Shown piece by piece: positions 1,290-59,072 of a DNA stretch of 64,000 bases. Each line of letters starts with the position of its first letter. Position 1 is the first letter of the stretch. The stretch lies in contig NZ_BATR01000092.1 of the NCBI RefSeq assembly GCF_000739655.1, forward strand, positions 124,001-188,000. The letters run 5' to 3'. The notes below the pieces were generated by a model that worked only from the letters and a program-made list of their open reading frames with translations, made no database searches and had not been told where the DNA came from. The DNA comes from Verrucomicrobium sp. BvORR106 (GTDB lineage Bacteria; Verrucomicrobiota; Verrucomicrobiia; Verrucomicrobiales; Verrucomicrobiaceae). The position numbers and the translations under genes were made by a program.

Positions 1290-1682
1290 ATGCGATTCCC
1301 CGCCGCGCGCCGACTTCGGAGTGCTTCCGAATTTGGTCGTGTGCGGGCTGAGGGCACCACTTACCCCGGGCGCTATGTCGTGCTCGGGGTTTTGCGTGCC
1401 GGTGAGGAAGCCCCTTGGAGGTCTGGCCTCATCACATCACGGAAGGTCGGTGGAGCGGTCCAGAGGAATCTGGTGCGTCGTCGCCTTCGGGAGATCCTGC
1501 GCGCCACCCCTCTCGCTCCGGGAGTCTGGCTTGTGGTCATCGCCCGCTGGAAGGCGGCCGGTGCCACGTTTGACGAACTGCGCACCGACTTTCAAAAAGT
1601 CGCCAAGCGTGCGGGAGTCTTGGTTCGTGAGAGCCAGCCACCCCAGACCCAGACGCGGCCTGTGGTCCGTGAAGCGGAATGA
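1290..1682 (+). CDS. rnpA: Ribonuclease P protein component
   Basis: A 130-residue basic protein that binds the RNase P RNA and helps mature the 5' end of tRNAs. The RNR signature region is seen as [15 protein letters not shown] at about residues 53-67, and the N-terminal '[12 protein letters not shown]' fits the family. It starts 35 bases after rpmH and its last bases (ATGA) overlap the yidD start, so the three genes are probably translated from one mRNA. Confidence 0.93.
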
Positions 1683-2014
1683 AGACGCTCATTCGCATCG
1701 CCATCCGGGGGTATCAGATCTTCATCTCCCCGGTGTTGCACTTTGTCGGCGGCCCAGGCAGTGGCTGCCGGTTTGAGCCCACGTGCTCGCATTATTTCCT
1801 GCAAGCCGTGGAGCGGCACGGCGTCATCCGTGGGGGCTGGATGGGGGTGAAGCGGATCGGTCGCTGCAACCCGTGGGGTGGGAGCGGGCACGATCCGGTG
1901 CCGGACTTGTCACCTGGAAAGACCTCAGAATGTCATTGCCAGAACGGTCATCTGCTCCACCAGTCTTCCTCCACCTCCCCGGAGCCTGAGATACCGCCCC
2001 GTCCCCCCGTGTGA
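1679..2014 (+). CDS. yidD: Membrane protein insertion efficiency factor YidD
   Basis: A 111-residue small protein of the YidD (haemolytic-type DUF37) family, acting at the inner membrane with YidC. Conserved features: N-terminal amphipathic helix, I-S-P at residues 16-18, C-R-F-x-P-T-C-S-x-Y motif, and R-C-N-P-W-G-G-S-G-x-D-P-V-P. The last 30 residues (S/P rich) are outside the conserved domain. The ATG overlaps the rnpA stop by 4 bases. Confidence 0.92.
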
Positions 2015-2085
2015 CGTGCGGTGGCCAACCGTGGGCGGCGTGTACCGACCCAATTTCACTATTTTAGCATCACACACTTTCTCTC

Positions 2086-8155: not shown

Positions 8156-8226
8156 GGCGACTCCGCCAGCGTAGGGGAGGAGGGGTGAGTTTCAAGCTCT
8201 CAGTTGAGGGGGGCCGCTGCGCGGCA

Positions 8227-8270
8227 GACGCCAGACTGGAAGACACAAGACACAAGACTCAAGACTTGAG
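8227..8270 (+). repeat. Short dispersed A/G/C-rich repeat, copy 1
   Basis: A stretch of repeated ACAAGAC-type units preceded by CCAGACTG. A close copy is at 18085-18122 after another gene. Both sit just after coding regions. It is low-complexity and shows no open frame. Confidence 0.5.
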
Positions 8271-8284
8271 CTTCAAAATGTGAG

Positions 8285-8571
8285 GTCGCCACAGGCGTAG
8301 TCCGGTTGTGCCAACCGGCTCACTCCCCAAACTTCCGTTGATCTCCTTCCCGCTCCGCCCACCCAACAGACCGCGGGGCCAAAGGCCCTGCCTCCTTTAC
8401 TCCGCAGCCTAGCCACTGGTAGCTAGTTTCCAGGTATGGGAGGCGGGATTCCCAGCCCCGCTCAGTCATACGTCCTATGTGATTGACCGCAACGGGCCGT
8501 GCAAGCCGGCGCCAGCCCTCAGGACCTTCGACCTGAGCCGGTTGGCACAACCGGACTACGCCTGTGGCGAC
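8285..8571. repeat. 38-bp perfect inverted repeat enclosing 211 bp (MITE-like)
   Basis: The left arm at 8285-8322 is the exact reverse complement of the right arm at 8534-8571. The inner end of each arm is itself a hairpin (CCGGTTG with CAACCGG around three bases). The enclosed 211 bases contain smaller palindromes (for example GGGCC/GGCCC type) and no gene. Perfect arms with no coding content are what one expects of a non-autonomous mobile element or a large structured RNA. Confidence 0.75.
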
Positions 8572-18289: not shown

Positions 18290-18442
18290 AAGGCGGATGC
18301 TGTCGGCCTTCCCACCTGTGTATCATCGTTGGACGGTACCCAACGTAGACTCGCTGGAAGCTCGTCAACGTTGGGCTTGTAGCCCCATCCTCTTCGAGGA
18401 AGAACTTCGACTGAGTGCGTGGAAGGCGTCGGTTCCTTGGTG
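18290..18442 (+). repeat. Covarying-hairpin element, copy A
   Basis: The main stem is CCCAACGT (18339-18346) with ACGTTGGG (18368-18375); the loop contains CTCGCT...GCTCG with a further small stem. Then a linker CTTGTAGCC and a second hairpin CCTC-TTC-GAGG (18389-18399). The upstream part (GTCGGCCTTCCCACCTG) is shared with copies C and D. Compared with copies B and C the stem bases differ but pairing is kept. Confidence 0.75.
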
Positions 18443-38779: not shown

Positions 38780-38880
38780 GTGTACGGGTGGCGTAGAGCT
38801 GCTGACAAGGCTATTCCCCGAAGGGGATTCGGCAACAAGCCCAACGTTATGGGGATCGTCGATATTGGGGCTTGAGTGGG
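38780..38880 (-). repeat. Covarying-hairpin element, copy E (minus strand)
   Basis: Read on the minus strand: a main stem AAGCCCCAA/TTGGGCTT (38865-38873 with 38837-38844, one bulge), linker CTTGTTGCC as in copy A, and a hairpin TCCCC-TTC-GGGGA (38815-38827). Copy A has CTTGTAGCC and CCTC-TTC-GAGG at the same places. Confidence 0.7.
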
Positions 38881-39768: not shown

Positions 39769-39855
39769 GTTGGGAGCGAAGGGAATGGTCAGATGAGTTG
39801 GACGACCTCCTGACCGCCGCAACTCCTTCGGAGTAGGATCTTTCAAGACCCCGTT

Positions 39856-39925
39856 CCCCACGTAGACTCGCTGGAAGCTCGTCAACGTGGGGCTTGTAGC
39901 CGCATCCTCTTCGAGGAAGAACTTC
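39856..39925 (+). repeat. Covarying-hairpin element, copy B
   Basis: The main stem CCCCACGT (39856-39863) with ACGTGGGG (39885-39892) encloses the same 21-base loop as copy A. Linker CTTGTAGCC, then hairpin CCTC-TTC-GAGG (39906-39916). Against copy A the stem shows paired changes (CCCAACGT/ACGTTGGG to CCCCACGT/ACGTGGGG). Confidence 0.8.
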
Positions 39926-40004: not shown

Positions 40005-40185
40005 GGGTGTTGATGGCGGAAGGGACAAAGCGGATGTTGTCGGCCTTCCCACCTGATCATCTCCTGCGGAGGTTCCCAAGGTTGACTCGCTTAGGGCTCG
40101 TCCAACCTTGGGCTGTGCTACAGATCCCATACTGGGATCAACTTCGGTCTGAGGCGGACGCCTTAAGGTGGTTCCTTGGCGGCCA
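40005..40185 (+). repeat. Covarying-hairpin element, copy C
   Basis: Begins with GTTGATGGCGGAAGG and GTCGGCCTTCCCACCTG as in copies A and D. Main stem CCCAAGGTT (40075-40083) with AACCTTGGG (40104-40112), loop with CTCGCT...GCTCG, linker CTGTGCTACA, second hairpin GATCCCA-TAC-TGGGATC (40123-40139), and an end GGTTCCTTGG block shared with A and D. Confidence 0.8.
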
Positions 40186-43694: not shown

Positions 43695-43998
43695 GACCTT
43701 CTCATACGCAGGCAGGGTGGGGAAACTTCAAAGTGGTATCCCTGGGCATGCCAGCCTTTCTGGCATGCCTTCAGGATGCATTTCGTTTTTAGCGTTCCAG
43801 GGGCAGGGCTCGTAAAACTCGCCCGGCCCCTGGCTACCGTCTGATATGCCTTCGGCATGGGCAAAGCCGCACTACATCAATCACCTCATCTCAAAGGACG
43901 GAACATTGACGGGTGGGTTGGTTTGTGCTGTGATTTGTCGAGCTTTCTGCTCGGCCTTCCGGCCACCAAACCTCCGGTTCACTTTCAATACCTTAGCT
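43695..43998. other. Intergenic region with covarying-hairpin copy F
   Basis: About 300 bases holding three consecutive hairpins (next entry). A possible N-terminal extension of the downstream frame runs through them but is not conserved-looking. Confidence 0.55.
43745..43858 (+). repeat. Covarying-hairpin element, copy F
   Basis: A 10-bp stem GGCATGCCAG/CTGGCATGCC (43745-43754 with 43760-43769), then a long stem CCAGGGGC (43797-43804) with GCCCCTGG (43826-43833) and an inner GGGC/GCCC, a linker CTACCGTCTG, and ATGCC-TTC-GGCAT (43846-43858). Same order as copies A-E (long stem, linker, three-base-loop hairpin) with different stem bases. Confidence 0.7.
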
Positions 43999-51158: not shown

Positions 51159-52036
51159 ACGCTGATCCACAATCCCCTTTGAGCGAAAAGCGACGCGCCT
51201 TCCTGAAGCGGTTCCGGTTGCTGGCGGCCCCCTCCATGATCATGGGCGGCGGTGCCACCTACGGGTACTCGTCTCTCATTGAGCGTCATCGTGTGACGGT
51301 GGATCGCCATGACCTGCGTCTGGCACTTGGCAGCCGGGCTCCGGCGAAGTTCCGGGCCGTGAGCCTGACGGATTTCCACTTCGACCCGTTGTTTGAAGAG
51401 GAGTACCTCGCGGAGGTGGTGCGCCGGACGAATGCCCTCAAGCCGGACATCATCATGCTGACGGGGGATTACATTTCCGCCACCAGCCACAAGTTCGAGG
51501 AGTTTGGCCAGGTGGTCGGTGGGTTCCAGTCCACCTGTGGTGTCTTTGCCTGCCTGGGCAATCATGATCACTGGCACCAGCCGAGTCGCATTCAGAACAT
51601 CCTGGTGAAACAGGGCATCGACGTGCTGGTGAACCGGCACACGCGGGTGCCCTGTGCCGGGGGCGAGGTGGTGCTGACCGGGCTGCAGAGCGTGTGGGGA
51701 GGTCGCCCTAACTGGGCGGTGGCCTCCCAAGGCTTGAAGCCGGACGACCGGACCCTTATGCTGGTGCATGAGCCGGACTATGCCAGTCATCTGGCGGGGG
51801 AGAAACAAATCGTCTTTCAGGCCTCCGGCCACACCCACGGAGGGCAGATCCGCCTTCCTGGGATCGGCGCTCTGCGCCTTCCCAGTTGGGGGGTGAAGTT
51901 CCAGGCCGGATTCTATGACGTGGACAACATCAAGTTGTATGTGAACCGCGGGATCGGTACGATCCAGTATCATGTGCGTTTCTTGTGCCCGCCTGAGATC
52001 GCGTGCTTTGATGTGGTGAACACGGATGTGATTTAG
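51155..52036 (+). CDS. Metallophosphoesterase (YkuE-like)
   Basis: A 293-residue calcineurin-like phosphoesterase from the ATG at 51155 (coupled by ATGA to the propeller gene). The N-terminus 'KRRAFLKRFRLLAAP' may be a Tat or membrane signal. Metal ligands: 'SLTDFHFDP', 'LTGDYIS', 'LGNHDHW', 'VHEPDYA' and 'SGHTHGGQ'. Closest in layout to UDP-glucose-type lipid-side phosphoesterases such as YkuE; substrate unproved. Confidence 0.88.
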   Translation: MNADPQSPLSEKRRAFLKRFRLLAAPSMIMGGGATYGYSSLIERHRVTVDRHDLRLALGSRAPAKFRAVSLTDFHFDPLFEEEYLAEVVRRTNALKPDIIMLTGDYISATSHKFEEFGQVVGGFQSTCGVFACLGNHDHWHQPSRIQNILVKQGIDVLVNRHTRVPCAGGEVVLTGLQSVWGGRPNWAVASQGLKPDDRTLMLVHEPDYASHLAGEKQIVFQASGHTHGGQIRLPGIGALRLPSWGVKFQAGFYDVDNIKLYVNRGIGTIQYHVRFLCPPEIACFDVVNTDVI

Positions 52037-52066
52037 GGGGGGTGGTTCTCTTGCGTGTTATATCAT

Positions 52067-52376
52067 GAACCCGAAGGGTTCGCCATGCGTAGCCATGGGG
52101 CGGCCGAGTGGAACGAGGACTACCCATGGAAGGTGGTATTGGGAGTTCTACCGCGGAGCGGTAGGCCGTGCGGGACCAAACGGCGGATGGGGTGCTTCGT
52201 GGGATCGGCGTCCGGGGTTCGCAATACGATGGGCCTACCGCTCCGCGGTAGCAGGCCGTCGGACGCATTCCACAGGTGGCCCTCGCTATGCTCGGTCGAC
52301 CTGTGGCTATTCATGGTGAACCCTCCGGGTTCGGTTTGCCGGGGCGGACACAAGGCTGTGATGCGGTTGACTCATT
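52067..52376 (+). repeat. 310-bp hairpin element, tandem copy 1
   Basis: It starts with GAACCC-GAA-GGGTTC, then a CCATG/CATGG palindrome, a hairpin CTACCGC-GGA-GCGGTAG (52148-52164) that is repeated inverted at 52235-52251 (a 20-bp inverted pair in all), a stem CCACAGGT/ACCTGTGG (52270-52277 with 52299-52306) around CTCGCTATGCTCG, and ends near GAACCC-TCC-GGGTTC. The unit repeats at exactly 310 bases. Confidence 0.85.
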
Positions 52377-52686
52377 GAACCCGGAGGGTTCGCCATGCGT
52401 AGCCATGGGTCGGCCGAGCATAGCGAGGACTACCTATGGAAGGTGGTATTGGGAGTTCTACCGCGGAGCGGTAGGCCATGCGGGGCCAAACGGCGGATGG
52501 GGTGTTTCGCGGGATCGGCGTCCGGGGTTCGCAACGCGATGGGCCTACCGCTCCGCGGTAGCAGGTCGTCGGACGCATTTCCACAGGTAGCCCTCGCTAC
52601 GCTCGGTCGACCTGTAGCTATTCATGGTGAACCCTCCGGGTTCGGGATTGCCGGGGCGGAGGCCAAGATTCGGATGATTGACTCAT
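52377..52686 (+). repeat. 310-bp hairpin element, tandem copy 2
   Basis: Same length and order as copy 1 with scattered substitutions. Its first hairpin is GAACCC-GGA-GGGTTC. The CACAGGT stem is slightly less well paired. A degenerate third start follows at 52687-52750. Confidence 0.85.
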
Positions 52687-52750
52687 GAACCTCCCACCGG
52701 TAGCAATGTGGGGGCTGAGTGAGGTGAGAACTACCCATGGTAGAGGGGGG
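52687..52750 (+). repeat. Degenerate third copy start
   Basis: Aligns with the first 60 or so bases of the 310-bp unit (GAACC, CTACCCATGG) with many changes; the rest is lost. Confidence 0.5.
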
Positions 52751-52904
52751 GCAGATCTGCCTCGGACCGGCAACCCATCACGGCTAGAGTGTTTGTGGAT
52801 GCCGTCTCGGAAACTCGGGCAAGGTGTTCGTGGACGGTGACATGGGGGTTGCGGTTGAGGGGGGCGTTTTTCACGGTTGCTCTGCCACCGGAAGGCGTAT
52901 CTTT

Positions 52905-54782
52905 ATGGGGCACGTTGCCCGCCCAACACCCATGAGCACTGCTGCGAGCCGCCTGTCAGGTCCTGTCTGGCTGGGCATTGAAACGGGAGCCACGCACACC
53001 ACGGTGCTTTCAGTCCGGGGAGAGAATGAAGTGGTGGATCGCTTTGATCTCGGGCCGGCCAACATCCGGTTGGCCACTTCTGCGGAGCTCACCCACCTGT
53101 TTGAGTCGATTCGTGACCGGCTCACCATGGTTCCTTCTGCCATTGGCGGCGGCTTTGCCGGGTTGCGCAACGAAGATGACCGGAGGCGGGTGGTGAACTT
53201 GGTTCAAGGCATCTGGCCGGACACACCGTTTCTGGCCTCTGACGACCTGGAAACGGCGCTAGAGGCTGCAGGCGACTGGCCGGATAGCGCGGAGGCACGC
53301 GTGCTCCTGCTGAGTGGCACCGGTTCCTGTGCCTACGGTCGGAACTCCGAAGGACGCGTGGTGAAGGTGGGAGGCAGGGGGCACATCTTGGGTGACCAGG
53401 GCAGCGCCTCAGACATAGCGCTGCAAGCGCTCCGTGCCGTGGTGTACCAGCATGACGTCAACGGCCGCTTTCCTGCTCTGGGCGAGGCGATATTGCAGGC
53501 CTTGCTGCTGAATCATCCGGATGACTTGATCCCCTGGACCCAGGAGGCTGAGAAACAGGAGATTGCCCGACTGGCGATCACCGTCTTTACAGAGGCGGGC
53601 AGAGGGGACGATCTGGCGGCGCAACTCGTGCACGATGCGGCGCAGAAGCTGGCAGACATGGCGGCCCGGTGCACGAACCATCTGGTGCATGCAGATGCCG
53701 GGGTTCAGTACATTCTGGCTGGCAGCACCCTCCTTAAACAACCTCGTTTCTCGGGTGAGGTATCGAGCCTGCTTTCCATCCAGCGACCCCATTCAAGCAT
53801 CAGCCCCCTGGAACGGGAAAGCGTGTGGGGGGCGGTGGCGCTGGCCCGATCCTTGACGCCTGCGTCGCAGGCTGGACAGACCGTGCGCTCCCGAGCGGCC
53901 ACGCCGTTGCCGGCAGAAGTAGAGGTGGTCGCTCTGTCCTCACTGGCAAAGTCCCCCACTGAGCAGCGCAACCCCGCCTCCACGCATCTGGACACGATGC
54001 CATTGTCAGAGGCGGTGCGCCTCATGATCCGGGAGAATGAAGCTTCCTGCACTGCGGTGTTGGAGGTGGCGGAGGATCTGGAGTGGCTGGTGGAGCAAGT
54101 GGTGCAGGCCTTCAAGGCTGAGCGACGGCTCTACTATGTGGGTGCGGGCACGAGTGGCCGTCTGGGGGTGCTGGATGCGAGTGAGTGTCCGCCCACGTTT
54201 CGGGTGCCACCGGATCAGGTTCAAGGAATCATGGCTGGGGGACGGCGGGCCATTTGGTCCGCCGTGGAGGGGGCGGAGGACAACACGGCGGCGGGTGCCG
54301 ATGCGGTGCGTTATCGTGGAGTGCGACGAGGCGATGTGGTGCTGGGCATTGCGGCGAGTGGTCGTACCCCGTTCGTCTGGGGGGCTTTGCATGCGGCTCG
54401 TCAGCTCGGTGCGGTCACGGCCCTGTTGTGTTTTAATCCCGCGCTAGAGGTGGCTCCGAAGCACGCTCCTGATCGCATTCTGAAAATCAACACGGGGCCG
54501 GAGGTGCTCACGGGATCCACGCGGTTGAAGGCGGGCACGGCCACCAAGGTGGTGCTCAATACCCTGACCACGCTGGCCATGGTGCACACTGGCAAAGTGG
54601 TGAGCAATCTCATGGTGGACCTGAACGCGAGCAATGTGAAGCTCAAGGATCGTGCGGTACGTCTGGTACAGGAAATTACCGAATGTGAGGCCGGTATGGC
54701 GCTGGCGATGCTGGAGTCTGCCGGCTGGCGGGTGAAGGAGGCCGTTCGGCTGGTGCAGGAGCTTCAGGCTTCGGTCGCATGA
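52905..54782 (+). CDS. murQ: Sugar kinase (BadF type) fused to MurNAc-6-phosphate etherase MurQ
   Basis: About 625 residues from the ATG at 52905, chosen because GGAAGG lies nine bases before it (52932 is a possible alternative). Residues about 20-335 are a BadF/BcrA-type kinase domain ('GIETGATHTT', 'LLSGTGSCAYG', 'GRGHILGDQGSASDI') like the MurNAc/GlcNAc kinase MurK. Residues about 355-625 are a complete MurQ etherase with the SIS motif and catalytic Glu in 'GTSGRLGVLDASECPP' and 'NLMVDLNASNVKL'. The fusion would phosphorylate MurNAc and then cleave its lactyl ether, two consecutive steps of cell-wall sugar recycling, without a PTS. Confidence 0.88.
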   Translation: MGHVARPTPMSTAASRLSGPVWLGIETGATHTTVLSVRGENEVVDRFDLGPANIRLATSAELTHLFESIRDRLTMVPSAIGGGFAGLRNEDDRRRVVNLVQGIWPDTPFLASDDLETALEAAGDWPDSAEARVLLLSGTGSCAYGRNSEGRVVKVGGRGHILGDQGSASDIALQALRAVVYQHDVNGRFPALGEAILQALLLNHPDDLIPWTQEAEKQEIARLAITVFTEAGRGDDLAAQLVHDAAQKLADMAARCTNHLVHADAGVQYILAGSTLLKQPRFSGEVSSLLSIQRPHSSISPLERESVWGAVALARSLTPASQAGQTVRSRAATPLPAEVEVVALSSLAKSPTEQRNPASTHLDTMPLSEAVRLMIRENEASCTAVLEVAEDLEWLVEQVVQAFKAERRLYYVGAGTSGRLGVLDASECPPTFRVPPDQVQGIMAGGRRAIWSAVEGAEDNTAAGADAVRYRGVRRGDVVLGIAASGRTPFVWGALHAARQLGAVTALLCFNPALEVAPKHAPDRILKINTGPEVLTGSTRLKAGTATKVVLNTLTTLAMVHTGKVVSNLMVDLNASNVKLKDRAVRLVQEITECEAGMALAMLESAGWRVKEAVRLVQELQASVA

Positions 54783-58960: not shown

Positions 58961-59072
58961 CGATGATGGTCTACCGCTCCGCAGTGGAGTTTCTGACCTA
59001 CGTGTTCCATGGGTTTCACTCGCTACGCTCGTTGCACCACATGGCTATTCATGGTGAACCCCTCCGGGTTCG
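58961..59072 (+). repeat. Partial copy of the 310-bp element's right end
   Basis: Contains CTACCGC-TCC then GCAGTGG, a stem CCATG/CATGG (59007-59011 with 59040-59044) around CTCGCTACGCTCG, and CTATTCATGGTGAACCC before GGGTTCG, like the last third of the 52-kb units. The stem bases differ from those copies while the loop is the same. Confidence 0.72.

Follow-up and report, generated by a model that had tools for sequence, protein, structure and literature searches.

Results

A 266-bp dyad-symmetric element, present twice in tandem in the window (the 64,000-nt stretch of the Verrucomicrobium genome G000 analysed here), is very probably a non-autonomous, head-to-head dimer of the terminal inverted repeats (TIRs) of an IS200/IS605-like HUH (Y1) transposase whose gene has gone. 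We read it as a gene-less dimer of "TIRtron" terminal repeats, and the family as a new one of TIRtron type, because its half unit flanks a Y1 transposase gene in a relative, because an internally deleted copy is present in G000, and because homologous enzymes have TIRs of like design. The association of transposase and TIR, the deleted intermediate, the copy number, the covariation, the placement and the solo-hairpin alleles described below are all read directly from sequence. A specific enzyme can now be assigned to a large family of dispersed hairpins in an understudied phylum and, with intact element, deleted intermediate and gene-less dimers in one genus, the poorly studied TIRtron route becomes testable.

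The window locus

G000 is an 8.7-Mb draft assembly in 209 contigs. The locus lies between a gene ending at 52036, metallophosphoesterase-like to judge from its translation, and a probable sugar-kinase/MurQ-like gene, likewise named from its translation, that starts near 52914. After the left-hand gene come a single residual 7-bp microsatellite unit, GGTTCTC (52044..52050, + strand), and the conserved outer left end, TTGCGTGTTATATCAT (52051..52066, +), whose family form, TTGCGNGTTATCTCAT, recurs in three genomes at ends of the 'A' type. Copy 1 (52067..52332, +; 266 bp) consists of two inverted halves of ~102 nt around a ~63-nt core. Its left half (52067..52167, +, delimited by alignment A1, see below) contains hairpin 1 (52067-52081), stem 2 with its tandem G.A and three-base loop (52093-52129) and hairpin 3 (52148-52164), and its inverted right half (52231..52332, -) contains hairpin 3 (52235-52251), stem 2 and hairpin 1 (52318-52332). 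A 44-bp spacer (52333..52376, +) with GGTTGACTCATT as its 3' end leads to copy 2 (52377..52643, +), which has the same anatomy (left half 52377-52478, right half 52541-52643) and is followed by a second copy of the spacer (52644..52685, +) and by a decayed half unit (52699..52775, +; profile positions 22-100, 20.6 bits) with a decayed counterpart in the relative G001 (L130). A solitary half unit of the same family lies at 58968..59071 (-; 65 bits).

The earlier note had described two adjacent 310-bp units, and these are indeed present (52067-52376 and 52377-52686; 279 of 312 alignment columns identical), as are the GAACCC-N3-GGGTTC hairpins, the 20-bp CTACCGCGGAGCGGTAGGCC inverted pair and the CTCGC..GCTCG stem that it listed. 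It had also placed GAACCC hairpins at the start and the end of each unit, which holds for the start but not for the end: the closing hairpin occupies unit positions 252-266, with the 44-bp spacer after it. Because this hairpin ends at unit position 266, the element is 266 bp long rather than 310, and it is the 266-bp unit that is dispersed as copies in the genome. The two parts of the tandem have diverged unequally, with 249/268 positions identical (93%) in the element and 30/44 (68%) in the spacer. What had been taken for a decayed third start is real as sequence, although its nature is that of the decayed half unit at 52699-52775.

Structure of the half unit

Across 133 halves from three Verrucomicrobium genomes (alignment A1), the consensus half, with its three hairpins, runs from hairpin 1 (GAACCC-GGA-GGGTTC) through a linker with TAGCC at its 3' end to a long stem 2 (CCATGGGT..ACCCATGG, enclosing CGAGC-NNA-GCGAG), a variable linker of ~18 nt and hairpin 3 (CTACCGC-GGA-GCGGTAG). 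The TAG is nearly invariant and the base preceding it is G or A. In hairpins 1 and 3 a C and a G almost always enclose a loop of GGA, GAA or GCA, and the tandem G.A of stem 2 is retained in 131/133 halves, the next internal mismatch alternating between A.G (68) and G.A (53). Both features, C(GNA)G loops and tandem sheared G.A pairs, have exceptional stability when the DNA is single-stranded.

Pairing is maintained in 97.6% of stem cells, and 10 pairs have double changes. Double-change cells number 126 against a shuffled mean of 22 (0/500 shuffles), and all slid controls are far lower. Folded as a single strand, copy 2 reaches -94.8 kcal/mol (z = -10.9, 0/200 shuffles). The sole match in Rfam was a chance, sub-threshold match to a miRNA model.

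Copy number and genomic placement

A covariance model finds 121 halves in G000, 95 in G001 and 103 in G003, the latter two being Verrucomicrobium relatives (G003 complete, 8.22 Mb); its matches in other genera are few and weaker. BLAST finds ~42 sites in G000, and in Verrucomicrobium such elements number roughly fifty, dispersed in intergenic positions. The exact terminal hairpin pattern GAACCCNNNGGGTTC occurs 103, 78 and 78 times in G000, G001 and G003, and its reversed control 1, 0 and 2 times. Given 103 occurrences against one for the control in G000, together with the fold z-score above, the hairpin repeat is not due to chance.

A REP/BIME-like model had led the earlier note to foresee that a genome-wide search would return many, mostly intergenic copies, and this is what the 121 halves amount to: of the 32 copies that a simple ORF caller allowed us to classify, all are flanked by predicted genes, which are convergent at 20 copies, tandem at 11 and divergent at 1, and none falls within a gene. 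The excess of convergent placements corresponds to a binomial P of 8e-6 against an assumed 25%. G000 has a second site with two full copies, ~105 bp apart (L026, 3001-3266 and 3372-3640), where G003 has one copy and G001 a shortened form.

A cognate Y1 transposase

We gathered Y1_Tnp genes from the three Verrucomicrobium genomes. The majority of the full-length genes have inverted multi-hairpin repeats on both sides, similar in plan to those of the element and different in sequence. One gene in G003 (G003:C1:712449-712892), encoding a 148-aa HUH/Y1 transposase, has the half unit of the 266-bp element on both sides, inverted, at 92-94% identity over 63 nt; within its locus, L140, the halves lie at 1371-1471 (+) and 1969-2069 (-), with a further half upstream. 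Just upstream of this intact element, at 801-1013, there is a remnant of another transposase's C-terminus with a terminal repeat. The predicted enzyme has a putative HUH motif in the form HVHM and a candidate catalytic Tyr in YIKSQEEHH. It passes the NCBIfam IS200/IS605 model NF033573 (67 bits, cut-off 55) and fails the RAYT model NF047646 (25.7 bits, cut-off 80). By sequence it matches solved Y1 transposases, ISHp608 TnpA among them; the other solved structures presumably include ISDra2 TnpA.

The closest homologues of the enzyme in two other genera (70 and 60% in G009, 66% in G011) have hairpin-bearing inverted TIRs, and those of the 70% and 66% homologues follow the same three-hairpin plan. 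The 70% homologue retains CTACCGC..GCGGTAG as hairpin 3, which is also the form in most dimers, whereas the intact G003 element has GAACCGC..GCGGTTC.

G000 itself holds an internally deleted element (G000:C158:3968-4383) made up of a TIR, an ATG with ~30 codons and a second TIR, at 91-94% DNA identity to the intact G003 element. Neither G000 nor G001 yielded an intact transposase of this type, and the Y1 loci of G000 share only 10-11-nt matches with the 266-bp element. A series is thus visible that leads from intact element to deleted element, gene-less dimer and single half.

How might such dimers have spread? Each half, when single-stranded (probably on the lagging strand), would form three hairpins that include loops of the C(GNA)G type and a stem carrying a tandem sheared G.A pair. 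A transposase acting in trans would have bound the folded halves and cut close to the outer ends; it would then have moved the dimer, or a copy of it, to positions downstream of genes, in many cases next to a 7-8 bp microsatellite. Since no intact cognate transposase was found in G000, present copies would be mostly static, duplicated locally (as in the 310-bp tandem of the window) or collapsed to one hairpin, presumably by deletion between the 15-bp end hairpins. Among sites in G000, G001 and G003 we obtained no clean pair of filled and empty sites with exact insertion boundaries; L010, L018 and the window site, considered as clean empty sites in the relatives, were rejected on account of solo-hairpin remnants there.

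Collapse, divergence and exchange between copies

Many copies are shared in position by two or three species, which makes the family older than these species. At three of the sites (the window, L010 and L018) relatives retain just a 15-bp terminal hairpin. At L010, G000 has the full element, G003 has the left end, GAACCC-GGA-GGGTTC and the right flank alone, and G001 has a solo hairpin as in G003 but with the loop TCC. Because the two loops differ, the simplest reading is of two independent collapses, each of which kept a different end hairpin. Solo hairpins are also left at the window site in G001 and at L018 in both relatives. The 15-bp end hairpins are at the same time near-perfect direct repeats bounding a long palindrome, and deletion between them by standard palindrome-stimulated slippage would yield a solo hairpin. 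These pairs of full and solo alleles offer checkable predictions on how such elements disappear.

In 16 comparisons of shared copies the stems differ by 5.6%, the ~18-nt linkers by 27% and the core by 14.4%, while genes near shared copies differ by 3.7-13.2%. A stem divergence of only 5.6%, set beside these figures, points to present-day constraint or gene conversion more than to a plain decaying relic, and either selection or gene conversion acting on the hairpins would fit. Several pairs at shared sites have largely different linkers, which hints at conversion or replacement. Seeming compensatory changes in orthologous copies were traced to a single mispaired comparison and set aside. Two different sites of G001 (L113 4164-4273 and L117 4165-4274) have the same odd stem-2 apex, GATCCCGCAAGGCGGGAG, with linkers specific to each site, suggesting short-patch exchange between copies.

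A microsatellite beside one end

Tandem arrays of 7-8 bp units (about 3 or more units, within 90 nt of the end) accompany 25/48 TTGCGNGTTATCTCAT-GAACCC ends as opposed to 2/88 other ends (Fisher P = 5e-12, a value that needs caution because the 48 pool orthologous, and hence not independent, sites from three genomes). For G000 alone the figures are 13/25 and 1/43. As background, such arrays occur in 0.2% of random 90-mers and 0.5% of ORF-free 90-mers from G003. The units differ between sites and agree at orthologous sites, where copy number has changed: the GGTTCTT array of the window site has 12 or more units in G003, 2 in G001 and one altered unit (GGTTCTC) in G000.

The idea that the element makes the microsatellite grow loses strength from the presence of similar arrays where the element is absent. 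Across 800 kb of G003 there are 42 arrays (period 5-9, 3 or more copies), 0/42 of which lie within 300 nt of any of the 6 half units there; at L012 and L092, moreover, relatives have the array, or a stub of 1-2 units, and no element, the other flank differing there. Arrays being common elsewhere, and the array or its stub being present at these two sites without the element, insertion beside existing arrays seems somewhat likelier than growth driven by the element. More tentatively, and with the odds somewhat against it, the transposase may target, or the element may seed, 7-8 bp microsatellites in a polar manner, the array facing the TTGCGNGTTATCTCAT end, with the element persisting as a two-state locus (dimer or lone 15-bp hairpin) whose stems stay constrained long after mobility ended. 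If so, this would be a single-strand transposon that lands at hypervariable arrays and whose relics are maintained. The polar link yields checkable predictions on site choice, and neither it nor the solo-hairpin alleles were found described in the open-access literature subset.

Arrays also precede other sequences. In G003 (L189-L228) a different recurring sequence, AGGTGTTGGGG, comes after several of them, in some cases with GGCTTCAGCCTGCGG further on. At 8215-8571 of the window a 7-bp AAGACAC-type array precedes an element whose 38-bp inverted repeat (8285-8322 / 8534-8571) is perfect.

Discussion

The family could by now be mainly an RNA-level element, its mobile origin past and its hairpins selected for where they follow stop codons, as transcription end points or as a block to 3' exonucleases, serving one gene or two convergent ones. 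We regard this as rather unlikely, albeit compatible with the TIR-dimer reading. Copies do stand after genes (20/32 between convergent ones), similar hairpins would form from both strands of the dyad, and in the same orthologous copies stems have diverged far less than linkers (5.6% against 27%). However, a scan for U-tract terminators at the window site found none, the interior has been lost in relatives at three sites, and gene conversion among copies could equally keep the stems alike. A true GTAG REP/BIME (REPIN) family mobilised by a RAYT proper is less probable still. It would account for inverted hairpin doublets, intergenic 3' placement, a TAG beside the long stem and a Y1-type enzyme, yet halves of ~102 nt with three hairpins are far from a 20-40 bp stem-loop with unpaired GTAG. 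In addition, the base before TAG in alignment A1 is G or A and the enzyme remains below the RAYT cut-off (25.7 against 80 bits), so that the kinship to REPs implied by the earlier note does not extend to strict REP/RAYT membership.

Long terminal inverted repeats without a gene would also suit a classical MITE of a DDE transposase. We consider this very improbable: the repeats flank a Y1/HUH gene in G003, an association that by itself contradicts a MITE, and no target-site duplication is evident by eye in the flanks of copies. A draft assembly in 209 contigs, with several copies at contig ends, might raise the suspicion that the tandem itself was assembled from duplicated reads; this is least credible of all, because divergence between the two units amounts to 7% for the element and 32% for the spacer, and G001 also retains the same spacer, followed by a decayed half.

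Relation to known systems

The gene-less TIR dimer that we favour is closest to TIRYTs/TIRtrons, in which a Y1 gene lies between long, partly self-complementary TIRs and gene-less singles and dimers are dispersed. Di Nocera, De Gregorio and Rocco (2013, PMC3733652) reported on TIRYT genes whose long TIRs are scattered as singles, dimers and groups as well, and described Opitutus terrae (Verrucomicrobia) as rich in GTAG repeats; 'spinosum' is absent from the main text of that paper. A 2018 survey of HUH enzymes (PMC6006769) placed most TIRYTs in TnpA-REP subclass 2.1. The present family has the inverted flanking repeat, the putative HUH and Tyr motifs and the gene-less singles and dimers of a TIRtron, but differs in its three-hairpin repeats of ~102 nt, its C(GNA)G-type loops and tandem G.A stem, the microsatellite at one end and the solo-hairpin alleles. 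The GGGGWSAS of many published TIRs, which PMC3733652 does not require, is absent from the half consensus.

With REPINs and BIMEs and their RAYTs (Bertels and Rainey 2011, PMC3116915; Nunvar et al. 2010, PMC2817692) the family has in common non-autonomous, intergenic inverted hairpin doublets and a Y1 enzyme; unit length, hairpin number, the lack of a strict GTAG tag and an enzyme score below the RAYT cut-off set it apart. It resembles IS200/IS605 elements (IS608, ISDra2) in transposase family, hairpin-bearing ends and the sequence match to the ISHp608 TnpA structure, and departs from them in having inverted copies of a single three-hairpin unit at its two ends and in being gene-less in most copies.

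Closest to home are the other Y1-TIR families of the genus (the L048/L141, L053, L050 and L054 types), which likewise present hairpin, long stem and hairpin, inverted around Y1 genes, but have other stem sequences and a Y1 paralogue each. The earlier note had suspected kinship with other hairpin families of the window, and this proves true for design and enzyme class, because those families match TIRs of paralogous Y1 transposases: 18337-18402, 38814-38848, 39812-39919 and 40075-40139 match the L048/L141 type (hairpin, AGCC and a long stem with CTCGC..GCTCG, hairpin), and 43750-43860 is one L053-type terminal repeat (80.5% over 113 nt).
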